A stretch of DNA of 64,000 nucleotides. Origin: Puniceicoccaceae bacterium 5H. GTDB lineage: Bacteria; Verrucomicrobiota; Verrucomicrobiia; Opitutales; Oceanipulchritudinaceae. The DNA lies in contig WOUP01000006.1 of NCBI GenBank assembly GCA_009772895.1, positions 1 through 64,000 of the forward strand, in the 5' to 3' direction. Both the position numbers and the translations under genes were made by a program. Shown in pieces: positions 21,138 to 59,057 of the stretch (position 1 is its first letter; each line of letters starts with the position of its first letter). The notes under the pieces were generated by a model. That model had not been told where the DNA came from, made no database searches, and was given only the letters and a program-made list of their open reading frames with translations.

Positions 21138-21229
21138 AGGAAGTTCATTCCGGGGCCGCGAGATGCTGATCAGGCACCCCGCGCCACTCCGAAAGCAGGA
21201 AAAAGCAGGAAGAAAACAAGGCCGTTGGA

Positions 21230-21262
21230 GTCTGCCGCGGGGGATGGGACCCGGCGGCAGAC
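21230..21262 (-). other. Intra-operon hairpin, possible attenuator
   Basis: Exact 9-bp inverted repeat GTCTGCCGC (21230-21238) and GCGGCAGAC (21254-21262) in the 151-bp gap between the 907-aa and 1990-aa genes. Read on the minus strand the stem is followed, about 10 nt later, by pyrimidine-rich sequence with several short T-runs (21187-21220), not a clean T-tract. It could partially terminate or stabilise the upstream mRNA, giving more 907-aa than downstream protein. Confidence 0.45.
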
Positions 21263-21288
21263 AAAACCAATAACCTGAGCGGGCGCGT

Positions 21289-42400: not shown

Positions 42401-45400
42401 TGCTGCCGTCCACCGTGTTGAGCACGAGGTCCGCGCCGCTAGTCAAATCTTCCTGGGTGTTGGAGACGGCCTCGACGCTGCCGTCGAGCTGGACGCGGTC
42501 GATGCTCATGCTGAGATCGTCCACCGTCACGCCGTCGGCTTCCGTAATGAAGGTGCTACCCGTGCCCGAATCGGTCGTCACCACTTCCACCTGCGTATCG
42601 AGGTGGTTGTTGGCCTGGCCGATCGCGGTGCCGGCGCTCAGGATCAGGTCGTGGGCCGTAATGTCCTCGGCGGAAGTATCGTCCGCACGATCGAGGATGC
42701 TGCCGTTGGTGGCAAACACGCCCACCTTGCCGGTGGTCACATTGGCGTCACCCGTCTTGAGCTCGCCCAGGGTGATGTCGCCCGTGGTCGCTTCGTAGCG
42801 GATCGCGCCATTGGTGCTTTGGGTCAACGCGCCGTCCACCATCCTGATAGCGTCGTCGGCCTTCACGTCGATCGTCTTGCCATCAGCTTCCGCGAAGACG
42901 TCACCGTCGACGTTTTGCGTGATGCTGTCGTCCGAAACGATCGAGATATTGCCGGCGGTCGAAGTGACCGTGGCGTTCAGCGTGATGTCGGCATCCGTGA
43001 CTTCGTCGGTTTCACCCGCGTTGAGCAAGATGTCGTCTGTCGCCACGATGCCCGCGGCGTCCGTGCCCCCGTTGACCGTGATGCTGCCGTCCACCGTGTT
43101 GAGCACAAGGTCCGCGCCACTGGTCAGGTCTTCCTGGCCATTGGCCACATTCACCAGGCCGCCGTCGAGCTGGACGCGGTCGATGCTCATGCTGAGATCG
43201 TCCACCGTCACGCCGTCGGCTTCGGTGATGAAGGTGCTGCCCGTGCCGGAATGCGTGCTGATCACTTCGACTTGCGTATCGAGGTGGTTGGTGGGCTCGC
43301 CGATCGCGGTGCCGGCGCTCAGGATGAGGTCCTGGGCAGTGATGTCCTCGGCGGAAGTATCGTCCGCACGATCGAGGATGCTGCCGTTGGTGGCAAACAC
43401 GCCCACCTTGCCGGTGGTCACACCGGCGTCGCCCGTCTTCAGCTCGCCCAGGGTGATGTCGCCCGTGGTCGCCTCGTAACGGATCGCACCGTTGGTGCTT
43501 TGCGTCAGCGCGCCGTCCTGCATCGTGATGGCGTCATCAGCCTTCACGTCGATCGTCTTGCCGTCGGTCTGGGTGAAGACATCGCCCGTCGCCGTCTGCT
43601 CGATGCTATCCTGAGAGATGACCGAGACGTTGCCAGCGGTCGAGGTGACCGTAGCGTTCACCGTCAGGTCGGCATCCGTAATTTCGGCCGTTTCACCGGC
43701 GTTGAGCAGGATGTCGTCCGTCGCGACCACGCCCGCGTCGTCCGTGCCGCCGTTGACCGTGATGCTGCCGTCCACCGTGTTGAGCACGAGGTCCGCGCCG
43801 CTGCTCAGGTCTTCCTGGGTGTTGGAGATGACGCGGGTGGTGCCGTCGGTGTTCACGCGGTCAACGCTCATGCTGAGGTCGTCCACCGTCACACTGTCGG
43901 CTTCGGTAATGAAGGTACTGCCGGTGCCCGAATGCGTGCTGATCACTTCCACCTGCGTTTCGAGGTGGTTGGTGGCCTGCGCGATGTCGCTGCCGGCGCT
44001 CAGGATCAAGTCTTCAGCCGTGATGTCCTGCGCGGAGCTGTCGACCGCGAGATCGAGGATGCTGCCCTGGGTGGCAAACACACCCACCTTGCCGGTAGTG
44101 GTGCCGGCGTCGCCCGTCTTCAGCTCGCCCAGGGTGATGTCACCCGTGGTCGCCTCGTAGCGGATCGCGCCGTTGTTGCTCTCGGTCAGCGCACCGTTGA
44201 CCATCGAAATGGCGTCGGAAGCCTGCACGTCGATCGTCTTGCCGTCGGCCAGCGTGTAGACGTCGCCGTCCACATTTTGCGTGATGCTGTCGTCGGCGAG
44301 CAGGGTGGCGTTGCCGTCGGTCGAAGTGACCGTGGCGTTCACCGTCAGATCGGCACCCGTGACCTCGGTCGATTCACCCGCACGCAGCAGGATATCGTCC
44401 GTCGCGACCACGCCGGTGCTGTCCGTGCCGCCGTTGACGACCAGATTGCCTTCGGAGGTCTGGAGCACCAGATCGGCGCCAGAGCGCAAGTCTTCCTGCA
44501 CATCCGGGGCGGTGGTGACGAGGCTGCCGTCTGCCTGCACGCGGTCGATCGTCATGCTCAGGTCGTCCACCGTCACATCGTCGGCCTCGGTCACAAACGT
44601 GCTGCCGGTGCCGGAAGCGGTCGTGATGATTTCGACTTGGGTGTCGAGGTGGTTATCGCCTTCGCCAATCGCCGTGCCGGCGTTGAGGATCAGGTCGTGC
44701 GCCGTGATGTCCTGCACGGAGGTATCGTCCGCGCGATCGAGGATGCTGCCGGCGGTCGCGAACACGCCCACCTTGCCGGTGGTCACGTTGGCGTCGCCCG
44801 TCTTCAGCTCGCCCAGGGTGATGTCGCCCGTGGTGGCCTCGTAACGGATCGCACCGTTGACGCTCTGCGTCAGCGCGCCGTCCTGCATCGTGATGGCGTC
44901 GTCGGCCTTCACGTCGATCGTCTTGCCGTCGGTCTGGGTAAAGACGTCGCCCGTGGCGGTCTGTTCGACGCTGTCCTTGGCAATCATGGAGACGTTGCCG
45001 GCGGTCGAGGTGACCGTGGCGTCGGTCTTGACGTTGGAGATGGTCCCTTCGGCCGTTTCACCGGCGCTGAGCAGGATGTCGTCCGTCGCGACCACGCCCT
45101 CGTCATCCGTGCCGCCGTTGACCGTGATGCTGCCGTCCACCGTCTGGAGCACGAGGTCCGCGCCGCTGGTCAGATCTTCCTGGGCGTTGGCGACGGCTTC
45201 GACGCTGCCGTCGCGCTGGACGCGGTCGACGCTCATGCTGAGGTCGTCCACTGTCACGCTGTCGGCTTCGGTGATGAAGGTGCTGCCCGTGCCCGAGTCC
45301 GTGCTGATCACATCCACCTGCGTTTCGAGGTGGTTGGTGGCCTGCGCAATATCGCTGCCGGCGCTCAGGATCAGGTCGTGCGCCGTGATGTCCTGCGCGG

Positions 45401-48400
45401 AGCTGTCGAGGGCCAGGTCGAGGATATCGCCCGCCGTCGCAAACACGCCCACCTTGCCGGTGGTGGTGCCCGCGTCGCCCGTCTTGAGCTCGCCCAGGGT
45501 GATGTCGCCCGTGGTCGCTTCGTAACGGATTTCGCCGTTCGTGCTCTGGGTCAGCGCACCGTCGACCATCGAGATGGCGTGATCGGCCTTGAGATCGATC
45601 GAGCCGCCGTCGTGCTGGTTAAAGATATCGCCGTGGACGTTTTGCGTGATGCTGTCCTGTGTGACCAGGGAGATGTTGCCGCCGGTCGACGTGACCGTGG
45701 CATTCAGCGTCTGGTTGGCGTTCGTGGCTTCCACCGACTCACCGGACTCGAGCAGGATGTCTTCACCCGCTTCGATGCCGGCATCGTCCGTGCCACCATT
45801 GACCACCAGGCTGCCATCGAGCGTGCGCACCACGATGTCGGTGCCCGCGGTCAAGTCTTCCTGGGTGTTGTCGACATTGACCAGACTGCCGTCGGACTGC
45901 ACGCGGTCGATGCTCATGCTGAGATCGTTCACCGTGAGCGCGTCAGCCTCATCGATGAAGGTGCTGCCCGTGCCCGAATCGGTCGTGACCACTTCCACCT
46001 GAGTATCGAGGTGGTCGTTGCCCTGGCCGATGTCCGTACCCGCATTGAGGATCAGATCACGTGCGGTGATGTCCTGCGCGGAGGTATCGTCGGCGCGGTC
46101 GAGGATGCTGCCGGCGGTCGCGAACACGCCCACCTTGCCGGTGGTGAGGCCCGCGTCGCCTGTCTTGAGCTCGCCCAGGGTGATGTCACCCGTCGTCGCC
46201 TCGTAGCGGATCGCGCCGTTGACGCTCTGCGTCAACGCGCCGTCCTGCATCGTGATGGCGTCGGCGGCCTTCACGTCGATCGTCTGGCCGTCGGTCTGGG
46301 TGAAGACATCGCCCTTGGCGGTCTGCTCGACGCTGTCCTTGGCGATGAGCGAGACGTTGCCGTCGGTCGAGGTAATCGTAGCGTCGGCCTTGACGTTGGC
46401 CGTCGTGGCTTCGTCGGTTTCACCCGCGCTGAGCAGGATGTCGTCCGTCGCCAAAATGCCCGCGTCGTCGCTTCCTCCGTTGACGGTGATGCTGCCGTCG
46501 AGCGTCTGCAGCACGAGATCAGCGCCGCTGGAAAGGTCTTCCTGATCGTCACTCTGCACCTGCGTAGTGCCATCGGTCTGGACGCCGTTGATGCTCATGC
46601 TGAGCGCATCCACGGTGATGTCGTCGGCCTCGGTGATGAAGGTGCTGCCCGTGCCGGAAGCCGTGCTGATCACCTCGACCTGCGTGTCGATGTGATTGGT
46701 GGGCTCACCAATGCCGCGACCGGCATCCAAAACGAGGTCGTGCGCGGTGATGTCTCGCACGGAGCTGTCGACCGCGAGATCGAGGATGTCGTTGCCGGCT
46801 TCGACCCAAACCTGGCCGGTGGTGGTGCCCGCTTCGCCGGTCTTCAACTCACCCAGCGTGACATTGCCCATGTAGGCGCTGTAGACGATGGTGCCGTTGG
46901 TGCTCTGCGTCAGTGCATCGTCCACCATGGCGATGTTGTCGTAAGCCCCCACATAGATGGACTTGCCTTCGCCTTGGGCAAAAATGTCGCCGTCGGCGTT
47001 TTGCGTCACATCGTCGTAGGACCTCATGCTGATGTTACCGCCCGTCGATGTGACCGAGGCATTCAGCGTAATGTCCGCATCCGTCACTTCGCTCGACTCG
47101 TTGGCAACCAGCAGAATGTCTTCCGCCGCTTCGATGCCTGCGATATCGGCCCCGCCGTTGACGGTGATGCTGCCATCAACCGTGCGTAGCACCAGGTCTG
47201 CGCCACTGGTCAGATCTTCCTGCGCATCGTCGACTTCCACCAGCGAGCCGTCGAGCTGCACGCGATCGACGCTCATGCTGAGGTCGTCCACCGTCACGCC
47301 GTCGGCTTCGGTGATGAAGGTGCTGCCCGTGCCGGAAGCCGTGCTGATCACGTCCACCTGCGTTTCGAGGTGGTTGGTGGGCTCACCGATGGCGGTGCCC
47401 GCATCCAGAATCAGGTTCTGGGCGGTGAGGTCCTGCGTTGACGTATCGGTCGCGAGGTCGAGGATGCTGCCGTCGGTGGCGAACACGCCGATCGTATCAA
47501 ACGCCTGCAATTCACCCAGCGTGATGTCGCCGGTGCCCGCTTCGTAGCGGATGTTGCCGTTGGCGGCCTGGCTGAGGGCGCCGTCGACCATCGTGATCGC
47601 ATCGTCGGCCTTCAAGTCGATCGCCTTGTCTGCCGCCGTCGCGAAGACGTCACCGTGGACATTTTGCGTGATGCTGTCCTCGGAAACGATCGAGACGTTG
47701 CCGGCGGTCGAAGTCACCGTGGCGTTCAGCGTGATGTCCGCGTCGGTCGTTTCGTCGGTTTCACCCGCATTGAGCAGGAGGTCGTCCGTCGCCACGATGC
47801 CCGCGGCATCCGTACCGCCGTTGACCGTGATGCTTCCGTCCACCGTGTTGAGCACGAGGTCCGCGCCGCTGGTCAGGTCTTCCTGGCCATTGCTCACGTT
47901 TACCAGGCTGCCGTCGAGCTGGACGCGGTTGATGCTCATACCGAGATCGTCCACCGTCACGCTGTCGGCTTCGGTAACGAAGGTGCTGCCCGTGCCCGAG
48001 GCCGTGCTGATCACGTCCACCTGCGTATCGAGGTGATTGTCACTCTCGCCGATGGCGGTGCCCGCATTCAGAATCAGATCCTGGGCGGTGATGTCCTCGG
48101 CGGAAGTATCGTCCGCACGGTCGAGGATGCTGCCATTGGTCGCGAAGACGCCCACCTTGCCGGTGGTGGTACCCGCCTCGCCCGTCTTCAACTCGCCCAG
48201 GGTGATGTCACCCGTGGTCGCTTCGTAACGGATCGCGCCGTTGACGCTCTGCGTCAGTGCGCCGTCCACCATCGTAATGGCGTGGTCGGCGGCTACATCG
48301 ATCGTCTTGCCGTCGGTCGTGGTGCTGAGGTCGCCGTCGGCATTTTGCGTAACGTCGTCGGCCGCCTGCAGAGAAATGTTGCCCGCTGCGCGCACATCGG

Positions 48401-51400
48401 CGTTGAGCGTCAGGTCCGCCGTGGTGACTTCAGCCGTTTCACCCGCACTCAGGCGCAGGTCGTCGCCCGCGCTGACGCCGGAAGCGTCGGTGCCGCCGTT
48501 GACCGTCAGGCTGCCGTCCCCCGTGCTGACCACGAGGTCGCCCGCAGTGCTGAGGTCTTCCTGGGTATCGACCGTGGTCGGGACGAGGCTACCGTCGACC
48601 TGCACGCGGTTCACCTGCGTGGTGAGGTTGGTCACGGTCAGATCGTCCGCTTCCGTGATGAAGGCTGCGCCATTGGTGGCCTGGGCGCTGAGGTTGGCCA
48701 CCTGCGTATCGAGGTGATTGGTGCCCTGCCCAATCGAACCGCCCGCCTGTAGAATGAGGTCCTGCGACGTGATGTCAGTCGCGTTGTCGCCGGCCAGATC
48801 GAGGATATTGCCACCCGCGAAAAGACCGACCTTGCCCGTCGTCGTGCCGGCCGCACCCGTAGCGATTTCGCCCACGGTGATGTTGCCCGAACCCGCTTCA
48901 TAGCGGATGACGCCGTTGTTGCTCTGCGTCAGCGCGCCATTGACCATCGAGATTGCATCGCTGGCCTTCAGGTCGATCGTCTTGCCCTCTTCCTGGGTGA
49001 AGACGTCGCCGTTCACGCCCTGGCTGATGCTGTCGGTCGAGATCAGGCTGACGTTGCCCTTTTGCGAGGTGACACTGCCGTTGAGCCCGATGTTGGCGAT
49101 GGTGCCTTCGGCGGCTTCGCGGGACTCGAGGCGGATGTCGTCGATGACGTTGCTGGCCTCGCTCGTGGTGAGGCTGCCGTCCTTGACGATGACGATCGCG
49201 TCGCCGGAGGTCGTGGTGCTGACGCCCGAGAGCGCATTGCCGGCCGTCGGGTTGACGCTACCGAGGTTCAGGCTGCCGGTGTTGTCGACCACGTAGAGGC
49301 CGCCGGTGGCGCTGGTTGCCTCGAGGTTCTGGGCTTCGATTTCGAGGAAATTGTCGGTGCTGGCGATGCCGGTATCAGCCGTCAACGCGACGCCTGCCGC
49401 GTTGAGGTTGGTCGTGTCGCCGCCCTGAGTGTCGATGATGGACCCACCGCTGACCAACGTGATCGTGTGGTCGGTCGCGAGGTTGGTGTCCTTGATGACG
49501 TGGGACAGGCGCAGGTCACCGCTGGTGGTAATATCGATGTCACCGTCGGAAGACACCCCGTTGACGCCGTTGAGATCTGCGATCGTGAGGGCGTTGGTGG
49601 TATTGGTGTTGATGACGGAGACATCGCCGGTCGTGTTCTGCGCGGCGATGTTATCGACCTTGGTGTTGATCGAAGAATCCGTGCCAATGCCGGTGGCGGC
49701 CTTCAGCGTCAGGTTCTCCGCGATGACGGTGTCGTCAGTCGTATTGGCCGTGCCGTCGATCTCACCGTTGCTGGAGGTGAGGCGCACGTCCTGCGTGGAG
49801 GAGTTGCCCACCTGGCCCTTGACGATGATGTCGTTGAGCGCGGTGACGTCGATATCGCTCGTGCCGATGGTGCTGATGTCGCCAAGGCCGAGCGGGTTGG
49901 CGCCCTTGGACTCGAGGGAGACGTAGGTATCCAGCTGGCCCAGTGTCGAGACATCGACGCGCGAGGCCGAGACGCCGAGTGGTTGAGTCGAAGTGCCAAC
50001 GGGGTTGTCCGTCGCAAGCACGGCGTAGCTCTGCTGCAGCAGCTTGGCGCTGGCCGCCTGCATCAGCAGCGCGGTGTTAAAGGATTCCTGTGCGACCTGT
50101 TGGTCGTCCCGGGCCGAATTGAGCTCGCTGACCGCCGCCTGGTTGTCCAGCGTGGCTGCCGTCAGTTCAGCCTCGGCGGTCGCCAGGGCATTGCTGGCGT
50201 TTTCAGCCTTGGTCGCCTGCGGCCCGAGCACGTAGCGGTCATAGCTGTCGAGCGCCAAGTCTGCGACGCCGAGGGCCACTTCCGCAATGGCATCCCCCGT
50301 TTCCGCGCCACCGTCACCGCTGAGCGGGATCGCCTGAGCGCCGCCGGAAGGAATGGCGATGACGTTCTTTGCCAGCTGAGCCACCTTGACGGCCGTCGCC
50401 AAGGTGTTGCTCATCGTCTGATAAATGCTCAGCGTCGTATTTTCGCGAACCGCCGTGCGGTTCTTCGAATTGTAGTTCGAGAGCTTGCTCTGGTAATTCG
50501 AGGCCGCGACCGCTGCCTGGTTCGTTTCGGCCGCGAGGTTGTTGTTCTCGATGGTGAGAACGAGATTGGATGTATTGACGTCGGAGGTCTTGCCCGAGAA
50601 ATCGGCGATGGCCAGCGTCTGACGCAGCGTGTTCTCCACCGTGTCCTGCTTCTGGACGACGATGGAGACCTTGTTGCCGATCAGGTTTTCCGCCGTGCCG
50701 TTGCCATCGATGATGATGCCGTTGGGCACGATGATCGAAACGTCACCGCCGCCGTAGACGGCATCGAGCTTGCCGATCGTCACATCGCGATCAGCCTCCA
50801 GCTTGATATCGCCGCCCGCGGTCTTCAGGTTGCCGGCGATAATGTGACCGCCGGAGCTGACGCCGAGGTTGTCCGTGCCGAGCTGGGCGGTGAGGTTGAT
50901 GTCACCGGAGCCAGTGGTCGCGAGCGTGTCGTTCTGGTTGAGGAAGACGATATCGCCGCCCGTAGCCTTCAGGTTCAGACCGCCGCTGCCCACCGTCACC
51001 ACACTGCCCGCGCTCTGGCTGAGCAACGCGCCATTGTTGGCGTTGGCTGCCACCGAGCTGTCGACGATGATGATGTCCGTCGCCGCGATGGAGACGTTGC
51101 CCTTGCCGCTGAGCGTCGAGGAGAAGAGGAAGACCGGCCCCTGGTTGGAGGCCGCCACATCGCCGCTACCGCCGCTGGCGGAGAGCACGCTGACGTTGAG
51201 GATGATGTCGCCGCCGTTGGAACCGGTCACCCCGTCCGCCGCATCGAGCAGCAGTTCTTTCGCCGTCACCGCCGCTTCACCGCTCGTGGTGTGAGCATCG
51301 GTGATCTGGCCGTCTTCGGAGATCAGGACGACGCGGTCGGCCTGCGCGGTGATTTTGCCCAGGTTGATCGTGCCGTTGGCCGTCACCTCGATGTCGCTGC

Positions 51401-54400
51401 CTGAGCCGCCGGCATTGGCCGTGACCAGGTCGAGCACCTGCCCAGCGTTCAGCTGCTTGAGGTAGATGCCGCCGTTGAGCGTGGTGATGCGCGCCTCGCC
51501 GGAGACGTCCGTTTCGATCTTGTGGTCGGTGTCCGCGCCAAAAGAGGTCGCATTGACGGTCAGGTCCTGACCCTTGATGTCGATCGACGGGGTGCCGCTG
51601 TCGTCATCGGCGGCGTCGGTCACATCGCCCAGCACATCCAGGGTCACGTTGCCGTCGGCATCCAGGGAGCCGAGGCCGACGTTACCCGTATTCTCCAGCT
51701 TGATGTCACCGCCAGTCGCGGTGATGGAGGCCGAATCCAGGGAGCCGGCATTCTGGAGATAAACACCGTCCGCCGAACTGGAAGCTTCCAGATCGCCCGT
51801 AATAGCGGTGCCCAGGGACTGGCTGCTGGTACCGATGCTGCCACCGGTGGCGGTCAGCTTGGCGCCGGCAGTGGCCACCACACTCGACATGCCCGGGTTG
51901 CCGTCGAGGATGGAACCGCCGTTGGCCGTGAGATCGACTGCGTTGCCGCCGCTGGCGAGCTCAACCGTCAAGTCACCGCTGTTGACGACTTCCAGGTCGT
52001 GGCCGTCGCCGATCGCAGCGGCGGAAAGGGTGAGCGACTGGGCGTTGCGCAGGTAGACGCTGCCGGCGGTGCCGGTGGCGTCGAGGTGGGCGGCATCCGT
52101 GCGGATGGCATTGCCCGCAGCGCCGAGGCTGGTGCCAGCCATCTCGATCGAATCCGCGATGATCGCGTTGGTGCCGCTCTGCGTGATGGCACCGTCGGCA
52201 CCGAGGGAAACGTCGCCGCCCGTCAGGTCGAGGCCGGCGACTTCGATGTTGCCGGCGCTGTTTTCAAAAATGAGGGACTCGAGCGGCGTGCCCGTCGAGG
52301 TCAGCGTCAGGCGCTTGGTCGTGCCGTCAAAGTTGAAGGCACCGCCCGCGTGGGTGATGGAGACGGCATTGTCCTCGGTCCAGGCTTCGAGCTTGGTCAG
52401 CGAGCCGGTGTCGGTGATGCCGATGTCACCGATTTCGCCATCCGTAGTGGCCTTCAGGTCGGTGGTGTTGGCGAGCTCGAGGCTGTCGGCGCCACCGATG
52501 TGCCCACCGGCGTCCAGCACGACCGTCCCTGCGTCGATGTTGGTCGCGCTGCCGTTGTCGTCGGTGATGTCGGTATCGGCCGTAATCTCGACGCTGCCGT
52601 CGCTTACGATACCGCTACCGCCGAGCTGGATGCCGTTGAGGTTGGTCGTCAGGCCAAAGTCGCCGCCCGTGACGCTGATATTGCCGGTGCGGACGCGGTC
52701 GGCCTCGGTCACCCAGAGGCTGCCGTTGGTCGTCACCGCATTCAGGTTGGCGATGAAGGTTTCCAGCGGGTTCTCGCTGGTGCCGATCGAGGAAGCGGAG
52801 AGGTCGAGCGTCGTCGCCGTGAAGTCCACGCCCGCGGTGTCTTCCACGATCTCGCCAGCGGTGTGGAGCGTAACGGTATCCGAAGCCGTGACGCCCGCGG
52901 TCAACGTCACCTTGCCGGTGGAATCGATCGTGACGTTGTGGGTCGGGTTCTCGATCTCGCCTTCGATCTCCAGCGGCACCGTGCCCGCATCCTTGGCGAT
53001 AACTTCGCCGAGGGTCAGGTCGCCCGTGTGCGAGAGGGCGATGTCGCCATTGTCAGCGGTCGCCTTGAGCTTGGAGGACACGTTGGACAACTCGAGCGCG
53101 TCGCCGGCGCCGATACCTTGTTGGGCGGTCAGCGTGACGGTCTTGGCGTCGATGTTGTTGGCATTGCCGTTGGCGTCGGTGATGGCGCCGGCGCTGGTCA
53201 GCGTGACGGAGCCCTCGGAGTCGATGCCGGTGGTCCCGCCGAGGGCGATCCCGTTGGAGTCGGTGGTCAGGCCGACATTGCCCTGCGCGGAGATGTCACC
53301 GGTCGTCAGGGTATCGGTTTCCTTGGCAAACACGCCGCCGGTCGTGGCCGTGGCGTTGAGCGTGCCGACGGAGGTCTCCAGCGCATTGCCGCTGGTGCCG
53401 ATCGCCGTGCCGGAAAGGTTGAGCGTCGTGGCGACGAAGTCGACTCCGCTCGTGCTCTCGATGATCGCGCCGGTCGTATCGATGGTGACGACGTCGGAAG
53501 CCGCGACCTGACCGGTCAGGGTCACGTCACCCTGCGCGGAAATGTCGATCGTGCGGTTCTGGTTGGCGATGGTACCGCCCACTTCGGTCGCGACGAGACC
53601 CGCGTTGCGGGCGTAAACGTTGCCGAGTTTGAGGGACGGGCCCGTGCTCTGCAGGTAAACATCGCCATCGTCAGCCGTTGCACTGACGGTACCAGTGGCC
53701 GCGATCTTGATCGCTGCTCCGTTGGCCCCGATGGAGCCCCCACGCACGCCCCCGTTGGCCTGGGTGGTGAGGTTGACCGTCGTAGCCGTCACGGAACCGT
53801 CGGCGTTGGCCGTGATGTCGCCAAAGCTGTAAAGGTCGACCAGCCCGATGCTGGTAAGAGAGCTGTTGATCGCGAGGTTGGCCGAGTTGGAGACCGAGAT
53901 TTGCCCGGCCCCGGCATTCAGGGTGCCCCCGAGCGTCACATCACCGGTATTGCCGATGGTGGCGCTGCCCCCGTTGGTCTGGATCCCGCCGCCGGTGGTG
54001 GACGTAAAGTCGATGCCCGTGGCGTTGAAATTGCCGCCGTTGGTCGTGATCGAACCATTGATCTCGACCATGCCCGAGCCGCTGGCCGACGCGCCGGAGT
54101 TGGCGTTGAGCGTCACACTCAGCTTACCCCCGGTCGCCTGGATGCTATTGTTGATGATAACATCGTTGGCCGCATTGAGCGTCAGCGTCCGGTCGGCGCT
54201 ATTGCCATACAGCAGATCGGTCGACAGGGTGATATCGCCCCGTTCGCCGCTGCCGACCTGGTCCTGGGTCGTGATCGAGACATTGCCGGAGTTGAGGGCC
54301 GTCAGGATGAGGTCGACGCCGAGCTGCGCGTTGTCCGCCGTGCTGGCAAAGGGGTTGGCCGCATTGATCCGCGTCGCGCCATTACCCGCCACGATCTCGA

Positions 54401-55652
54401 TGTCGTTCGGGTCGATCAGCCAAGTACCCGCGTTACCGGCGGCGGCAGAGACGTCTGCTGTCGTGCCGATCTGGAAGCCTTCATAGCCGCTGGTCTCGAT
54501 AAAACCGCCGTCGCCACCCTGGGCACCGCCCTTGGCCGCCACGCTGGCATCGCTCCCGAGCAGGAGGCCCTTTTCGCCGATCGCGAGGATTTCGCCACCC
54601 TGCCCTTCATTCAAGGCGCTGGCGGTGGTTTCGCTGCCGTCGGTCAACGCGACGGTGTCGCTCGCATACAGGTTGATCTTGCCAGCGGTGCCGTTTTCGG
54701 CGTCGGCGCTGGCGCGGCCAAACTGGCCGACCAACTCACCGGTCATAGAAATATTGCCGCCCTGGGTCTGGCCCGAGGCATCCAGGGTGCCGGTATTGAC
54801 CACCTGGCCGGCGCCGCGGCCGGTCATTTCGATCGAGCCGCCCTTGCCGTCGAGCGAGGTCGCTTCGACGATACCGCCGTTGTTGACGACGGAAGACATG
54901 ATGTCGCGCGCCGCATCGCCGCTCATCACCACACGGCCGCCTTTGCTCTGGACCGTGCCGGTGTTGCTGACGGCCGCCTCGAGGGATTCGCCGTCCGGGC
55001 CGGTGACCGAGGACAGGACTTCGCCCGAGACCTCAAAGCTGACCAGGCCATCGCCCGAGAAGTCGACCGCATACTTGTCACCCGAGGCCAGGACCACGTC
55101 GCCGACGTTGGCTACGATGAGACCGGAGTTCTGGACGCCCGGCGCTACGAGGTGGATGAAGCCGTCTTCGCGCGCCTCCAGCTTGCCCTTGTTGACGACG
55201 TAGGAGAGCGCCGCGGTGTCATCGAGCTCAAACTGGAAGTTGTCGCCGAGAAAGTCTTCGTCGCGGATGCTCAGCGTCGTGGCGAGCAGGCCCCCGACGT
55301 CCACCGAAGCGTCCTTGCCAAAAAGGATGCCGGCGGAATTGAGGATAAAGATGCGTCCGTTGGCGGTCAGCTCACCGTAGATCTCGGTGGGGCCGCCGGC
55401 CGTGACGCGGTTCAGCGCCACGGAGGAGTTGCTGTTTTGCTGGAACTGGACGAGTTCGTCCGCCGCGATGTCGAAATCGTCCCAGTTGATGACCATCTTG
55501 TCGGTCAACTGGTTGATCGTCGTGGTGTTGCCCTCGGTGTTGATGGAGCCATCACCGTGAACGATGTCGCCCCCGGTGGCAGCAAACATACCGGAGGTGA
55601 TGCAGGCAAAGGAGCTGAGGCCTGCCAAAAGGTTGGTGCGAGCTTTGCTCAT
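36498..55652 (-). CDS. Giant two-partner-secretion exoprotein (filamentous-haemagglutinin-like, TpsA), 6384 aa
   Basis: 6384 aa. Signal peptide at 1-25 (LLAGLSSFACITSGMFAATG), then the TPS/haemagglutination-activity domain to about 250: INQLTDKMVINWDDFDI, QNSNSSVALNRVTAGGPTEI, and GRIFILNSAGILFG, where NSAG replaces the usual NPNG. The rest is a predicted right-handed beta-helix built of G-N/D-h-T-h-x-A repeats. Blocks: irregular helix to about 1660; an alpha-helical, Ala/Gln/Asn-rich insert at about 1670-1880; 13 tandem copies of a 227-residue unit at about 2363-5309 plus a diverged copy before them; a 23-25-residue-period array to about 5800 including a 105-residue near-perfect duplication; a C-terminal cap ending NAFQFDADSGYWTLSFGDVE. 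No barrel or sorting anchor. It starts 12 bp after the translocator gene. Large adhesin role is inferred from family; the frame is intact throughout, which argues for selection. Confidence 0.92.
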   Translation of the reverse strand: MSKARTNLLAGLSSFACITSGMFAATGGDIVHGDGSINTEGNTTTINQLTDKMVINWDDFDIAADELVQFQQNSNSSVALNRVTAGGPTEIYGELTANGRIFILNSAGILFGKDASVDVGGLLATTLSIRDEDFLGDNFQFELDDTAALSYVVNKGKLEAREDGFIHLVAPGVQNSGLIVANVGDVVLASGDKYAVDFSGDGLVSFEVSGEVLSSVTGPDGESLEAAVSNTGTVQSKGGRVVMSGDAARDIMSSVVNNGGIVEATSLDGKGGSIEMTGRGAGQVVNTGTLDASGQTQGGNISMTGELVGQFGRASADAENGTAGKINLYASDTVALTDGSETTASALNEGQGGEILAIGEKGLLLGSDASVAAKGGAQGGDGGFIETSGYEGFQIGTTADVSAAAGNAGTWLIDPNDIEIVAGNGATRINAANPFASTADNAQLGVDLILTALNSGNVSITTQDQVGSGERGDITLSTDLLYGNSADRTLTLNAANDVIINNSIQATGGKLSVTLNANSGASASGSGMVEINGSITTNGGNFNATGIDFTSTTGGGIQTNGGSATIGNTGDVTLGGTLNAGAGQISVSNSANLAINSSLTSIGLVDLYSFGDITANADGSVTATTVNLTTQANGGVRGGSIGANGAAIKIAATGTVSATADDGDVYLQSTGPSLKLGNVYARNAGLVATEVGGTIANQNRTIDISAQGDVTLTGQVAASDVVTIDTTGAIIESTSGVDFVATTLNLSGTAIGTSGNALETSVGTLNATATTGGVFAKETDTLTTGDISAQGNVGLTTDSNGIALGGTTGIDSEGSVTLTSAGAITDANGNANNIDAKTVTLTAQQGIGAGDALELSNVSSKLKATADNGDIALSHTGDLTLGEVIAKDAGTVPLEIEGEIENPTHNVTIDSTGKVTLTAGVTASDTVTLHTAGEIVEDTAGVDFTATTLDLSASSIGTSENPLETFIANLNAVTTNGSLWVTEADRVRTGNISVTGGDFGLTTNLNGIQLGGSGIVSDGSVEITADTDITDDNGSATNIDAGTVVLDAGGHIGGADSLELANTTDLKATTDGEIGDIGITDTGSLTKLEAWTEDNAVSITHAGGAFNFDGTTKRLTLTSTGTPLESLIFENSAGNIEVAGLDLTGGDVSLGADGAITQSGTNAIIADSIEMAGTSLGAAGNAIRTDAAHLDATGTAGSVYLRNAQSLTLSAAAIGDGHDLEVVNSGDLTVELASGGNAVDLTANGGSILDGNPGMSSVVATAGAKLTATGGSIGTSSQSLGTAITGDLEASSSADGVYLQNAGSLDSASITATGGDIKLENTGNVGLGSLDADGNVTLDVLGDVTDAADDDSGTPSIDIKGQDLTVNATSFGADTDHKIETDVSGEARITTLNGGIYLKQLNAGQVLDLVTANAGGSGSDIEVTANGTINLGKITAQADRVVLISEDGQITDAHTTSGEAAVTAKELLLDAADGVTGSNGGDIILNVSVLSASGGSGDVAASNQGPVFLFSSTLSGKGNVSIAATDIIIVDSSVAANANNGALLSQSAGSVVTVGSGGLNLKATGGDIVFLNQNDTLATTGSGDINLTAQLGTDNLGVSSGGHIIAGNLKTAGGDIKLEADRDVTIGKLDAVYGGGDVSIIVPNGIIIDGNGTAENLIGNKVSIVVQKQDTVENTLRQTLAIADFSGKTSDVNTSNLVLTIENNNLAAETNQAAVAASNYQSKLSNYNSKNRTAVRENTTLSIYQTMSNTLATAVKVAQLAKNVIAIPSGGAQAIPLSGDGGAETGDAIAEVALGVADLALDSYDRYVLGPQATKAENASNALATAEAELTAATLDNQAAVSELNSARDDQQVAQESFNTALLMQAASAKLLQQSYAVLATDNPVGTSTQPLGVSASRVDVSTLGQLDTYVSLESKGANPLGLGDISTIGTSDIDVTALNDIIVKGQVGNSSTQDVRLTSSNGEIDGTANTTDDTVIAENLTLKAATGIGTDSSINTKVDNIAAQNTTGDVSVINTNTTNALTIADLNGVNGVSSDGDIDITTSGDLRLSHVIKDTNLATDHTITLVSGGSIIDTQGGDTTNLNAAGVALTADTGIASTDNFLEIEAQNLEATSATGGLYVVDNTGSLNLGSVNPTAGNALSGVSTTTSGDAIVIVKDGSLTTSEASNVIDDIRLESREAAEGTIANIGLNGSVTSQKGNVSLISTDSISQGVNGDVFTQEEGKTIDLKASDAISMVNGALTQSNNGVIRYEAGSGNITVGEIATGAAGTTTGKVGLFAGGNILDLAGDNATDITSQDLILQAGGSIGQGTNHLDTQVANLSAQATNGAAFITEADDLTVTNLTTQVNRVQVDGSLVPTTVDTQEDLSTAGDLVVSTGDGSLTVNGGTDASGVSAGDDLRLSAGETAEVTTADLTLNADVRAAGNISLQAADDVTQNADGDLSTTTDGKTIDVAADHAITMVDGALTQSVNGAIRYEATTGDITLGELKTGEAGTTTGKVGVFATNGSILDRADDTSAEDITAQDLILNAGTAIGESDNHLDTQVDVISTASGTGSTFVTEADSVTVDDLGMSINRVQLDGSLVNVSNGQEDLTSGADLVLNTVDGSITVNGGTDAAGIVATDDLLLNAGETDETTDADITLNATVTSTAGNVSIVSEDSITQNVHGDVFATAADKAIDLKADDAITMVDGALSQAANGNIRYEAGTGDITLGELQAFDTIGVFATDGSILDLATDTSTQDLTAQNLILDAGTAIGEPTNHLETQVDVISTASGTGSTFITEADGVTVDDLSMSVDRVQLDGSLVEVDDAQEDLTSGADLVLRTVDGSITVNGGADIAGIEAAEDILLVANESSEVTDADITLNASVTSTGGNISMRSYDDVTQNADGDIFAQGEGKSIYVGAYDNIAMVDDALTQSTNGTIVYSAYMGNVTLGELKTGEAGTTTGQVWVEAGNDILDLAVDSSVRDITAHDLVLDAGRGIGEPTNHIDTQVEVISTASGTGSTFITEADDITVDALSMSINGVQTDGTTQVQSDDQEDLSSGADLVLQTLDGSITVNGGSDDAGILATDDILLSAGETDEATTANVKADATITSTDGNVSLIAKDSVEQTAKGDVFTQTDGQTIDVKAADAITMQDGALTQSVNGAIRYEATTGDITLGELKTGDAGLTTGKVGVFATAGSILDRADDTSAQDITARDLILNAGTDIGQGNDHLDTQVEVVTTDSGTGSTFIDEADALTVNDLSMSIDRVQSDGSLVNVDNTQEDLTAGTDIVVRTLDGSLVVNGGTDDAGIEAGEDILLESGESVEATNANQTLNATVTSTGGNISLVTQDSITQNVHGDIFNQHDGGSIDLKADHAISMVDGALTQSTNGEIRYEATTGDITLGELKTGDAGTTTGKVGVFATAGDILDLALDSSAQDITAHDLILSAGSDIAQATNHLETQVDVISTDSGTGSTFITEADSVTVDDLSMSVDRVQRDGSVEAVANAQEDLTSGADLVLQTVDGSITVNGGTDDEGVVATDDILLSAGETAEGTISNVKTDATVTSTAGNVSMIAKDSVEQTATGDVFTQTDGKTIDVKADDAITMQDGALTQSVNGAIRYEATTGDITLGELKTGDANVTTGKVGVFATAGSILDRADDTSVQDITAHDLILNAGTAIGEGDNHLDTQVEIITTASGTGSTFVTEADDVTVDDLSMTIDRVQADGSLVTTAPDVQEDLRSGADLVLQTSEGNLVVNGGTDSTGVVATDDILLRAGESTEVTGADLTVNATVTSTDGNATLLADDSITQNVDGDVYTLADGKTIDVQASDAISMVNGALTESNNGAIRYEATTGDITLGELKTGDAGTTTGKVGVFATQGSILDLAVDSSAQDITAEDLILSAGSDIAQATNHLETQVEVISTHSGTGSTFITEADSVTVDDLSMSVDRVNTDGTTRVISNTQEDLSSGADLVLNTVDGSITVNGGTDDAGVVATDDILLNAGETAEITDADLTVNATVTSTAGNVSVISQDSIEQTATGDVFTQTDGKTIDVKADDAITMQDGALTQSTNGAIRYEATTGDITLGELKTGDAGVTTGKVGVFATNGSILDRADDTSAEDITAQDLILSAGTAIGEPTNHLDTQVEVISTHSGTGSTFITEADGVTVDDLSMSIDRVQLDGGLVNVANGQEDLTSGADLVLNTVDGSITVNGGTDAAGIVATDDILLNAGETDEVTDADITLNATVTSTAGNISIVSDDSITQNVDGDVFAEADGKTIDVKADDAIRMVDGALTQSTNGAIRYEATTGDITLGELKTGDANVTTGKVGVFATNGSILDRADDTSAEDITAHDLILSAGTAIGQANNHLDTQVEVVTTDSGTGSTFITEADGVTVDDLSMSIDRVQLDGSVEAVSNTQEDLTSGADLVLNTVDGSITVNGGTDAAGIVATDDILLNAGETDEVTDADITLNATVTSTAGNISIISKDSITQNVDGDVFAEADGKTIDVKADDAITMVDGALTQSTNGAIRYEATTGDITLGELKTGDANVTTGKVGVFATQGSILDRADDTSAEDITAQDLILSAGTAIGEPTNHLDTQVEVISTHSGTGSTFITEADGVTVDDLSMSIDRVQLDGSVEAVSNTQEDLTSGADLVLNTVNGSLYVNGGTDNTGVVATDDILLNAGETAEATNANLTVNATVTSTDGNVSIASNDSIEQTSTGDVFTEAEGKTIDVKADDAITMNNGALTQSTNGAIRYEATTGDITLGELKTGDANVTTGKVGVFATEGSILDLAADSSAQDITAHDLILSAGTAIGQANNHVDTQVEVISTHSGTGSTFVTEADSVTVDDLSMTVDRVQLDGSLVTTAADVQEDLTSGADLVLSTVNGSLYVNGGTDNAGVVATDDILLNAGETTEATNANLTVNATVTSTDGNVSIASNDSITQTSTGDVFTEAEGKTIDVKADDAITMNNGALTESTNGAIRYEATTGDITVGELKTGDAGTTTGKVGVFATEGSILDLAVDSSTQDITAQDLILNAGTAIAEANNHLETQVEVVTTGSGTGSTFITEADSVTVDDLSMTVDRVQQDGSLEAVANTQEDLTSGADLVLNTVDGSLTVDGGTDDRGVVATDDILLSAGELAEGTSADLKVNAAVTSTSGNVSLTSVDSIEQTATGDVSTETDGKTIDVLAQQGDIVMADGAVTESVDGAIRYEARDGDITLGQIRTGDAGTTTGKVALIANDGSVLDRADDTSVVDVVAGGLIVQAGDQIGTETNSVETNVDTLAAAAGTNAYLTELDGVTVDDLSLTVDRVNTDGSVTTTTADALEDLTAGNDLVLRVSAGDLTVNGGTDTAGIYAGNNLKLDVDQGDLTLNGTSEVLGDALVNADRGDLTVNAAIDTTGDATLNATQGNLTTNAVVTTGGNAELNAAAGDLTVNDDVVTTGNLEVNADLGDIVTNGQLTTEGNARVNAGAGNLTVNGDVDTTGNLEVNAGQGDLLVEGDVVTGGNTLVTAGEGTLTTNGTIDTTGNAEINAGLGNVAVNGDVTTGGDLDVLAGAGNLTVNGNVDTEGETLVKADAGNLTVNGDVDTTGNLEVNAGQGDLLVEGDVVTGGNTSVTAGEGTLTTNGTIDTTGNAEINAGLGNVAVNGDVTTGGDLNVLAGAGNLTVNGNVDTEGETLVKADAGDVTTTGRMLSQGNLEINALKGDVRVAGPYQSSEQDLKVLAGEGDITIDGDMFAVGQLTLKADAGDITTNAEIGSYGLALLEAEGNLTTNGQVNSGGDIQMRTHSGDLTVNAAVSTDFATHLSSDTGNIVTNASVYGSAGLDLSAGTGDITLNATAGSGQTDINVTAGGNITQTAAGDIHASAAGKAINVTAGGDITMADGATAMTDNGVIDYSAGGNVVLGGLDAGTSNVNVTATAGAITDGGDTDLEVVASELNLTAGAGVAPDSNALETSLDRLSANVANGNLSVNEADALTLDGITMGSGDLNVSVADGSITLGTVTTDGDATLTAAAGSIFDDNVNSTLLTADTANLVARDGIGTEGALETRAIDTQVNTLNATVTGAGEIYINEVDGMTVGAVETLDGDINLVTQSGDMTVDAITAGGEDDTVTLVAETGSVLGGAEGANVNATNLAVSAGNGVGNDTNVLDLNVDNFVADGGNGGVHVSSQNPDGLNIGGVTPGMGLEDIEGVSTDGGDISIQADTQVTVAETIRNENGGNIRLDTDGDIQQDTDILGSGEVILNAGGSITMANDTTTSNTDGDIVLRAGNEVELSSVVGTIDSTITIISPTLSTQEGAHLYAGEVDVYSVIDPIELLEVFDDQIPIIRHNDRIIGGVVVQNAVFNAEAVAFQDSETQFASSEPAYSTVASNFLNAGLWEINAFQFDADSGYWTLSFGDVE
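38656..39285 (-). repeat. Near-perfect 315-bp tandem duplication within exoprotein gene
   Basis: Two head-to-tail copies, about 38656-38970 and 38971-39285, differ at only a handful of positions (for example TTGACC against TTAACC near the start). Each encodes 105 residues made of about four shorter units with the pattern G-(N/D)-L-x-V-N/E-G-x-V-x-T-x-G-(N/E)-x-x-V-x-A. It is part of a longer short-period array from about 38.3 to 39.7 kb. Confidence 0.85.
39728..48565 (-). repeat. 13 tandem ~680-bp repeats in exoprotein gene
   Basis: Each unit encodes about 227 residues beginning QEDLTSGADLVLNTVDGS and containing GAIRYEATTGDITLGELKTG, GSILDRADDTSAEDITAQDL and TGSTFITEADGVTVDDLSM. Counting the QEDL block gives 13 copies between 48565 and 39728, mean spacing about 680 bp, with a more diverged copy upstream (to about 49.2 kb) and a partial one (LEDLTAGNDLVLRV) downstream. 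Some neighbours are nearly identical (the two copies covering about 41.8-43.1 kb), others differ mostly at loop positions. The long antisense open frames seen over this stretch are a by-product of this periodicity. Confidence 0.9.
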
Positions 55653-55664
55653 GAGAAAAACAGG

Positions 55665-56768
55665 TTAGAAAGTGAAACGACCTTGCAGGTAAAGTGAGAC
55701 GTCATCTTCGGCTTCCTCGCCGAAGGGCACCGCCACATCCGCGCGGATGCTGGCATGTTCGCCAATGGCCACCCGGGTGCCGACCCCCGCGCCGCCGATG
55801 GAATAACTGTCCGCCTGGTGCTGGAGCGGATTCTTCAAATAGACCGCGCCCTGATCCACAAAAGCCACCAACTGGTAATCGTTGGTGCTCTTGAAGACAG
55901 TGTAACGCGACTCGAGGTTTGCGGTGTAGCCGTGGTCGCCCAGGTGGATGCCCTGTGGGAAGCCACGCACCGAGTTGGCGCCGCCGATGGACCACTCTTC
56001 CGAGGCCACCAGCGTGTTGGCCGCGATCTGGCCGGAGAACCGGGCGATCAGATACATGCGGTCGTTGATGCGCTGGAGGCGGGCGACGTCGAAGCTGAGC
56101 TTGGTAAAGACGTTGTCGGCCCTCGCATCGCCGCGGCTGGAGTCGGTCGAATCGCTTTCCATGCCGCCGAGTACCTCACCGAGACCCTGGTGGATCTTGG
56201 CCGAGGCCATCGTGCGCCCGCTCGAGTCCTTGTCGTCAAAGGAAAGGCCGAGCTGCAGCTTGCGGATGTTGTCCTCGAAAATCGTCTGACCGGCGGCGTC
56301 CTGTTGTGAGTCGAGCCAGCTGAACCAGCCGTCGACCATCAGCGAGCGCTCGGTCGTCTTGAAGATGGGGTAGCTGGCCCCGACGCCGAAGGAAAAGTTC
56401 TCCCCCTCCGAGCCGAGGAACGCAAACTCCTCCCCGATCTCGTAGCGACCGGCGGAGACGTAGCCGTTCAGCGCCAGGCCGTTGTAGCCGACCGGGCGAC
56501 TGTAGTGGCCCGTGCCGTAAAGGGTTTCGTTGGCGTCGAAGGCAGAGACGACTGCCACGCCGAGTTCGTCGCCGCGCCCGCTGAAGTTCGGGAGGGTGAC
56601 GCTGGGGATGAAACGGTATTCGCCCGTATTTTCGGTGCCGAAGTTATTCAGCTCGAGTTCCGAAATGACCCGCTTGTCTTCCTTGACGTTGACCACGAGG
56701 TCTGTGCCGCCGACCTGCGTGCCGGGCTGCAACGTCGCCTTGAAGCTGAGGCCCGAGAGGTCGTTCAT
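55665..56768 (-). CDS. C-terminal barrel part of frameshifted TPS translocator (TpsB/ShlB/FhaC family)
   Basis: This is the second part of one gene; the first part is at 56644-57369. The apparent ATG (56768) is internal. Translating with one G removed from the run at 56823-56830 joins the two parts as GYLGG-LPQGQALRLDPVANALYGMNDL, giving a 567-aa protein, the normal TpsB length. This part carries the end of the second POTRA region (LVVNVKEDKRVISELELNNFG) and the 16-strand barrel, with the family's conserved barrel-lining motif SVRGFPQG and a terminal Phe (LQGRFTF). TpsB proteins recognise the TPS domain of the exoprotein and export it across the outer membrane. Downstream, the exoprotein gene begins 12 bp later. 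Confidence 0.85.
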   Translation of the reverse strand: MNDLSGLSFKATLQPGTQVGGTDLVVNVKEDKRVISELELNNFGTENTGEYRFIPSVTLPNFSGRGDELGVAVVSAFDANETLYGTGHYSRPVGYNGLALNGYVSAGRYEIGEEFAFLGSEGENFSFGVGASYPIFKTTERSLMVDGWFSWLDSQQDAAGQTIFEDNIRKLQLGLSFDDKDSSGRTMASAKIHQGLGEVLGGMESDSTDSSRGDARADNVFTKLSFDVARLQRINDRMYLIARFSGQIAANTLVASEEWSIGGANSVRGFPQGIHLGDHGYTANLESRYTVFKSTNDYQLVAFVDQGAVYLKNPLQHQADSYSIGGAGVGTRVAIGEHASIRADVAVPFGEEAEDDVSLYLQGRFTF

Positions 56769-57369
56769 CCCGTAGAGGGCATTGGCAACCGGGTCCAGGC
56801 GCAGGGCCTGGCCTTGGGGCAGCCCCCCCCAGATAGCCCATCACGTGGTCGGTCGAAAAACGTCGATTGCCCTGCACGACGATCTTGCCGAGCGTGCCTT
56901 CGAGTACCTGCATGCGCACGACGCCGTCCTGGGCCGGCACATCCTGCTGCGGGATCATCACCTTCGTCAGGGCAAAACCGCGCTCGTGGTAGTAGGCTTC
57001 GATTTGCTGCGCGACCTGGCGCAATTCCGGCAGGCTCATCTCGCGCCCCACAGCGGGCAGCACGGAGCTCAGCTCCGCATCGGTAAACTCGGTGTTGCCG
57101 TTCAGCTCGATCTGGCGGATGAACACCGTAGAGGCGTTGTCACTGCTCAATTCGGCCGGCTGTTCTTGATCCACCGAAACTTCAGGAGGTGTTTCGCGAG
57201 CGGCTTCTTCCGCCTGGCGCAGGCGTTCAGCTTGTTCGCGCGAAGGAGGTCCCATCTGGGCCGATGCTTGATTCACAGCTATGACCGAGCCCGTAAATGC
57301 AAACAACAAAACGTTAGCCAGCTTCATGGTCAGACGACTTTGAGAGATAGCGGGAGGTAAAAATTTCAT
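56644..57369 (-). CDS. N-terminal POTRA part of frameshifted TPS translocator (TpsB)
   Basis: First part of the interrupted translocator gene. The frame is genuine from 57369 (or ATG 57327, which starts the core signal peptide MKLANVLLFAFTGSVIAVNQ) to about 56831; the rest, to 56644, is out-of-frame junk. After the signal comes a Gln/Glu-rich helix (REQAERLRQAEEAARETPPE), which in FhaC-type proteins plugs the barrel pore, then a POTRA_2/ShlB-type domain: VFIRQIELNGNTEFTDAEL, LRQVAQQIEAYYHERGFALT, VVRMQVLEGTLGKIVVQGNR. The reading breaks at the C8 run (56823-56830), where seven bases would keep frame. No strong ribosome-binding site distinguishes the two start choices. Confidence 0.83.
   Translation of the reverse strand: MKFLPPAISQSRLTMKLANVLLFAFTGSVIAVNQASAQMGPPSREQAERLRQAEEAARETPPEVSVDQEQPAELSSDNASTVFIRQIELNGNTEFTDAELSSVLPAVGREMSLPELRQVAQQIEAYYHERGFALTKVMIPQQDVPAQDGVVRMQVLEGTLGKIVVQGNRRFSTDHVMGYLGGAAPRPGPAPGPGCQCPLRDERPLGPQLQGDVAARHAGRRHRPRGQRQGRQAGHFGTRAE
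56823..56830 (-). repeat. Homopolymeric C8 tract (G8 on coding strand) at the tpsB frameshift
   Basis: Eight consecutive C on the plus strand. The codons around it read CTG GGG GGG CTG if seven G are present and continue into the barrel part; with the eight present the frame shifts by one and ends at 56644. Confidence 0.9.
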
Positions 57370-57689: not shown

Positions 57690-59057
57690 TTATCTGGCGG
57701 AACGATCCACCGCTTCCGCCACCGCCTGGACCTGATCGAGATAGCGAGCGACGCGTGGCTCCTGCCTCAACTCCCATGCCTGCCGCAACAAATCGACGGC
57801 CTTTGCATAACGTTCTTTTACCACGAGATACTGTGCATGTTGCAAGAGGGCATCATAACGGGATGCGTCCAGCCGTTCGGCCTGCTTCAATCGCTCCATG
57901 GCCAAAACCGGTTCGCCTTGCTGCCACAGACACGCCGCCAGCTCGAGCAAGGCCTCGCCGTCGGTCCCATCGAGGTCGACGAGACGGCGCCACGTTTCGG
58001 TTGCTTCATCCACCTTGCCCTGTCGGCGCAGCAGCTTGGCCCTCAGGCCGAGCACCTGCAACTGTTGTGAGTGGCTCATGTCCCGGGTTCGCCCCTCCAG
58101 CAGACCTACCAGACGCTCCGCCTGTTCGAGACGATCCTGACGCAAGAGCAACTCTACCATGCGCAGGGCCGGGTCGAGAGCCCTTGCCGTCTGCCCCTGC
58201 TCCACCGCCTCGCGATAGAGATCCGCCGCTCTCCCGAACATCTGCGCGTTGTAATAAATATCCCCCAGCAAGGTGAGGGAATGCGTATCCAACCCGGTGT
58301 AGAGACGCCCGGCCTCGAGTGCCTTGGCCGCGTCGACGGGTTCTTCCAGCGCCAGGTGAGCTTGAGCCAGTAAACGCCACAACTGCGCGTTCTCCGGCCA
58401 ACGGTCCACCAGCGACTCGACTAACGCAATGGCCGCCCGATAGTCCCTTTGGTCGTTGAGGGCCTGGGCCAGGCCGATTTGCCAATCCAGCGCCTCCGTA
58501 TCCATTAAATGCGCCTGGCGGTAAGCGGCTTCGGCCCCGACTGCGTCTCCAGACTTCAGCAGGCTGTAGCCGAGGGCGCCATACACCCTGCCCTCCCGCG
58601 CGCCCAGCTCGATGGCTTTGCCGAGGTGCGCGACCGCAGCAGCGTAATGACCCCGCTGGGCCTCGAGCAGACCAAGATTTTCCTGTGCCCGTCGAAAGCT
58701 TGGGAAACGCTCGAGGGCCGCCTCGTATTGCGCCGCCGCAGCCTCCAGCTCTCCCTGCTGAAAATACAGGTTGGCCAGCACGAGGTTGAGCGCAGCCCCG
58801 CCCCCGTCTTCCAGCGCCGCCTGCAAAAAGCCGATGGCCTGGTGCTCGTCCGTCTCCAGCAACTCGAGCGCTCGCCTCAAATCACGCTGATCCTGCGGCG
58901 ACACCTCCGGCTCGACATCTGGCAACACCCGGTAGCTGCCCAGGAAGCCTGCCCGCCAATCCGGATCGTGCAGCATCCGTTCAGGCAGCGCCGACGCCGC
59001 CCCCGCGGCCAGCCAGGGCGTCAAGAGCAGGAGCAATGAGAAGGGCAGCAACTTCAT
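57690..59057 (-). CDS. Secreted/periplasmic TPR-repeat protein of the TonB cluster
   Basis: 455 aa. Signal peptide MKLLPFSLLLLLTPWLAAGA, then about nine tetratricopeptide repeats from residue 60 onward, for example ALNLVLANLYFQQGELEAAA, AQENLGLLEAQRGHYAAAVA and RVYGALGYSLLKSGDAVGAE. TPR solenoids scaffold protein-protein contacts. The ATG overlaps the tonB stop (ATGA at 59054-59057), so the protein is made with TonB. Similar TPR genes close TonB2-type clusters in Vibrio, Shewanella and relatives, where they are thought to help TonB-dependent uptake. It is the last gene of the operon; its exact role is inferred. Confidence 0.87.
   Translation of the reverse strand: MKLLPFSLLLLLTPWLAAGAASALPERMLHDPDWRAGFLGSYRVLPDVEPEVSPQDQRDLRRALELLETDEHQAIGFLQAALEDGGGAALNLVLANLYFQQGELEAAAAQYEAALERFPSFRRAQENLGLLEAQRGHYAAAVAHLGKAIELGAREGRVYGALGYSLLKSGDAVGAEAAYRQAHLMDTEALDWQIGLAQALNDQRDYRAAIALVESLVDRWPENAQLWRLLAQAHLALEEPVDAAKALEAGRLYTGLDTHSLTLLGDIYYNAQMFGRAADLYREAVEQGQTARALDPALRMVELLLRQDRLEQAERLVGLLEGRTRDMSHSQQLQVLGLRAKLLRRQGKVDEATETWRRLVDLDGTDGEALLELAACLWQQGEPVLAMERLKQAERLDASRYDALLQHAQYLVVKERYAKAVDLLRQAWELRQEPRVARYLDQVQAVAEAVDRSAR

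Follow-up and report, generated by a model that had tools for sequence, protein, structure and literature searches.

A frame break at a G8 tract splits the only two-partner secretion translocator gene in the assembled genome of Puniceicoccaceae bacterium 5H

Variation in the length of homopolymer tracts is known from fhaB of Bordetella pertussis (PMC1891110), the exoprotein (TpsA) side of FHA two-partner secretion (TPS), in which a G10 tract was found in mixed lengths in 49 clinical isolates (PMC7446907). Within the Verrucomicrobiota, capsule genes of Akkermansia muciniphila carry G8 and C10 tracts that were proposed to be phase variable, although variation in their length was not shown (PMC3048395). 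Here, we analysed a stretch of 64,000 nucleotides (the window) from Puniceicoccaceae bacterium 5H, which is contig 31 of a 4.10 Mb genome in 40 contigs (contigs C27 and C28, mentioned below, belong to the same genome), and which carries a TPS translocator (TpsB) gene that changes reading frame at a run of eight G. As in fhaB, a one-base change in tract length truncates the product; unlike fhaB, where the tract lies in the exoprotein gene, counts ten G and has been seen in mixed lengths, the tract described here lies in the translocator gene, counts eight G and is known from one assembly. It shares with the Akkermansia capsule tracts the phylum, a length of G8, a surface-related gene and a proposal of phase variation, but the class and the gene are different. 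No report of a homopolymer tract in a TPS translocator gene was found in a search that covered part of the literature. If the break is real and reversible, homopolymer phase variation in TPS would no longer concern the exoproteins of animal pathogens alone but would include the translocator of a verrucomicrobiote from the environment; if instead a one-off mutation or an error lies behind it, the case would be ordinary, and mainly a caution for the annotation of split genes at G/C runs.

The two halves of the TpsB gene are minus-strand open reading frames (ORFs) that lie in different frames and overlap around the tract, which was read directly from the sequence (Table 1). ORF A matched the ShlB-type POTRA family in Pfam (PF08479, POTRA_2; residues 84–158, 7e-18) and, in the PDB, the POTRA structure of TpsB4 (2mhj, 1.1e-11). 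ORF B matched the ShlB barrel family (PF03865, 2.5e-31), gave only weak sequence matches to the structures of CdiB (6wil/6wim) and FhaC (3njt/4qky), and contains the motifs GGANSVRGF (L6 VRGY/F type) and AFVDQG (FxDxG type). Against a profile built from 18 TpsBs of the same order as the host, ORF A covered positions 31–166 with a match that extends to its residue 181, whereas the match of ORF B covered positions 167–548 from its residue 7 onwards, leaving neither gap nor overlap between the two. The G8 run starts at codon 180 of ORF A and the profile match reaches residue 181, which places the frame change inside the run. An independent measure of codon usage put the frame switch at the same site, with native codon usage in both halves up to the tract, and the ~60 residues of ORF A that follow it are out of frame. 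The tract makes up only 0.47% of the 1705-bp gene, so that a random indel would seldom be expected to fall there. Thus, the position of the break at G8 is not due to chance and the split is real in the given sequence, as the earlier note had proposed when it assigned a POTRA part and a barrel part of one TpsB to different frames.

Like FhaC, ShlB, CdiB and HMW1B, the split gene combines a ShlB-type POTRA, a PF03865 barrel and motifs of the VRGF and FxDxG types, and it lies directly before the gene of an exoprotein with a TPS domain; unlike these, it lies in two frames as assembled and does not form a single continuous reading frame. Its domains, motifs and gene order indicate that it is a TpsB by descent but, as assembled, predictably not a working one. 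A signal peptide is missing from ORF B, as it is from the 367-aa (amino acid) barrel ORF listed from the ATG at 56768, and the assembled pieces therefore cannot yield an exported barrel.

The partner gene is intact in sequence. The TpsA frame runs uninterrupted across 6384 aa (19 kb), includes 315-bp repeats near 38656–39438 and carries the only TPS domain of the genome (PF05860, 7.6e-31, at 54804–55550). One TpsB gene and one TPS exoprotein gene, adjacent to each other, were found in the genome, in agreement with the claim that the large exoprotein has a single translocator; with a single TpsB next to a single TpsA, no exit for the 6384-aa protein other than the broken gene is evident. Beyond the frame break, the TpsB halves contain no stops, and no second lesion was seen in the 1.7 kb of the gene. 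The remainder of the locus had also been called open and well conserved; the first part of this description held, whereas the second is loose, as the best TpsB homologues in the genus, the family and 373 genomes of the order are ~30% identical and none exceeds about 31%. A scan of genome contigs for close relatives likewise found none.

Table 1. Coordinates of the TPS locus (window positions) and the other in-gene G/C runs of at least eight bases in the genome.
Feature	Position	Strand	Description
ORF A	56644-57369	-	241 aa; N-terminal region, first POTRA and start of second POTRA of TpsB
ORF B	55665-56840, stop to stop	-	391 aa; remainder of second POTRA and TpsB barrel
G8 run (C8 on + strand)	56823-56830	-	site of the reading-frame change; profile switch 166/167 and codon-usage frame switch
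TpsA	36498-55652	-	6384-aa repetitive exoprotein; begins 12 bases downstream of the TpsB stop
TPR protein	57690-59057	-	Pfam TPR; end of the upstream ExbB/ExbD-type operon, bounds the TPS pair
Broken G8	contig C28, 40865-40872 (L052 = C28 37500-44500, tract 3366-3373)		secreted protein with Ig-like domain and RCC1 repeats; halves in two frames, both open
In-frame G9			metallo-beta-lactamase/rhodanese-like protein, named by reading the translation
In-frame G9			alanine racemase, named by reading the translation
In-frame G9			glycosyltransferase, named by reading the translation
In-frame G8			CBS/CorC-like protein, named by reading the translation

We favour a recent slippage mutation at the G8 tract, without evolved switching, to which we give a probability of roughly 0.42; this figure and the weights of all other readings are judgements, not computed values. 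Briefly, a single-base slippage in G8 would have shifted the frame of the only TpsB of the genome in the DNA that was sequenced, the product as assembled would be a truncated periplasmic POTRA fragment, the pore would not be built and export of the 6384-aa TpsA would be off, and a further slippage at the tract could restore the frame. The lesion is taken to be recent because the rest of the TpsB/TpsA pair is unbroken, and there was no sign of selection keeping the tract as a switch. The true base count, slippage as the cause and the loss of export are what we infer from the sequence. Two points weigh against this reading: an error confined to runs of at least eight bases would look identical, and two of the three in-gene G/C runs of eight are broken; in addition, a recent mutation and a true switch in its off state give the same picture in a single assembly.

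Long G/C runs are strongly avoided in the coding DNA of this genome. A random sample of its coding DNA (404 kb) contained 0, 1 and 0 runs of 7, 8 and at least 9 bases, respectively, relative to 33, 10.5 and 4.4 (~48 in total) expected from synonymous-codon shuffling within genes, and the single run of at least seven in this sample was the TpsB tract itself. The tract is therefore an outlier, unusual for a genome that avoids such runs, yet synonymous shuffling predicts more of them. It could have been kept as a switch, tolerated in a dispensable gene, or caught as an accident before its removal.

That the assembled tract is wrong by one base and TpsB is intact in the organism we regard as unlikely, though it is one of the two strongest alternatives. 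The location of the break at the sole G/C run of at least seven in the sampled coding DNA would fit such an error, and in clustering studies a lone frame-shifted gene with intact homologues is often counted as a sequencing error (PMC3711429). We used the genome as its own control and inspected all 32 distinct G/C runs of at least eight bases in its 4.1 Mb. Six of these are in-gene runs: four keep the frame (three G9 and one G8, in genes of metabolic, transport or glycosyltransferase type) and two are broken, i.e. the G8 of TpsB and that of the RCC1-repeat protein, which is the only other gene of the genome split at a G8. All shorter in-gene runs inspected, 63 of six bases and 11 of seven, were in frame. 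Moreover, a frame-switch scan of ~600 kb revealed few other internal breaks, namely in a DsbD-like gene and an integrase gene, neither of them at a homopolymer, and window ORFs of 19 kb, 9.4 kb and 6 kb are uninterrupted. Since in-gene runs of six, seven and nine are in frame, homopolymers are not misassembled in general, which lowers the likelihood of a simple homopolymer error. With two of the three in-gene runs of eight out of frame, an error that affects only runs of this kind may still be at work, though all three runs of nine are correct.

Equally unlikely in our judgement is an evolved phase variation, in which slipped-strand mispairing at G8 would reversibly switch TpsB, and hence TpsA export, on and off. 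Several features would suit it: the tract is translated and belongs to a surface-export gene without backup, its length sets the reading frame as in contingency genes, runs this long are otherwise purged from coding DNA, and the B. pertussis and Akkermansia tracts are precedents. Furthermore, both broken G8 genes concern secretion, one encoding a secreted protein and the other an exporter; the chance that the two broken and the two secretion-related genes among the six coincide is 1 in 15, suggestive at most.

In contrast, contingency tracts would be expected to be kept in orthologues, and none of 41 TpsB homologues of the order, all of them distant, has a G/C run of at least seven at the site of the G8. 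Taken together, the TpsB genes of the order contain 5 such runs compared to 11.4 in shuffled versions, i.e. fewer than expected. MutS and MutL genes are present in the host genome with open frames. Eight bases are also about the lower limit for known slippage contingency tracts. For one B. pertussis tract, variation in culture was confined to alleles longer than C8 (PMC1891110). Finally, the sister species lacks the TPS locus. The earlier note had left the choice among a switch, decay and an error; its premises, a break at the tract, no other damage and a single pore, were all recovered, but the evidence just listed disfavours the switch. More doubtful still is the specific proposal of a verrucomicrobial TPS that would be phase variable on the translocator side, in parallel with the G8 RCC1-repeat protein, in a free-living host with intact mismatch repair.

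The homologues of the order are encoded in one frame, apart from one with a TAG and one cut by a contig end. The former (L005, from genome G018) is broken by an in-frame TAG with family matches on both sides. In another Opitutales genome, the TpsB gene L009 (47% GC) contains an in-frame G9 at codon 270, away from the site of the G8, which is a candidate for checks of tract length.

Upstream of the TPS pair lies an operon with genes of the ExbB, ExbD and TPR types. In the sister genome (G001) the same operon is found in the same order, the TPS pair is missing after it, and a search of that genome found no TpsB match anywhere. As the operon is kept without the pair, the pair was either gained here or lost there. 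The DnaA of the host is up to 72% identical to that of Opitutales metagenome-assembled genomes.

An old pseudogene, in which the locus decayed long ago, is very unlikely. The absence of the pair from the sister species and the in-frame TAG in another TpsB indicate that TPS loci may be lost in the order; however, neither the 1.7 kb of TpsB nor the 19 kb of TpsA contains a second lesion, and codon usage is native on both sides of the break, which upholds the view that long-standing decay is improbable. Least credible of all is recoding, by which ribosomes or RNA polymerase would slip on G8 and make some full-length TpsB: G8 is slippery in principle and both frames are open around the tract, but homologues are encoded in one frame, so that a programmed shift with a conserved two-frame layout is not a trait of the family, and a role for a hairpin was rejected as the structure around the tract is not unusual (z -0.24).

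Other candidate breaks were examined and mostly discarded. Apparent breaks at three G7 runs (L093, L095 and L098) were rejected because the runs are intergenic, and sequence inspection showed that the other runs of six or seven bases that had been flagged adjoin a start codon or lie outside clear genes. Most other apparent breaks at runs of at least eight are intergenic as well, and contig C27, which is rich in repeats, accounts for nine of these. Of the 33 frame-switch candidates, most proved to be shadows of opposite-strand genes or ordinary gene junctions and were rejected. The break in the DsbD-like gene lies near 6667 (minus strand) of L186, with no homopolymer there, and that of the apparent integrase gene lies close to its start, near 838 (minus strand) of L067, with no long homopolymer.

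Contig C27 (L051, 17.4 kb) contains nine G/C runs of 8–13 bases in intergenic dispersed repeats, with a 376-bp unit of these in tandem at 20–921, and an ORF at 11360–11809 that resembles a REP-associated tyrosine transposase, and looks like a REP-type repeat expansion. Another stretch of the genome (L188) includes exactly 5000 N at 7501–12500. Elsewhere in the window, three very long genes in succession (3150, 1990 and 907 aa; 5716–24012, minus strand) encode proteins with DUF11 and related repeat domains that are probably secreted.
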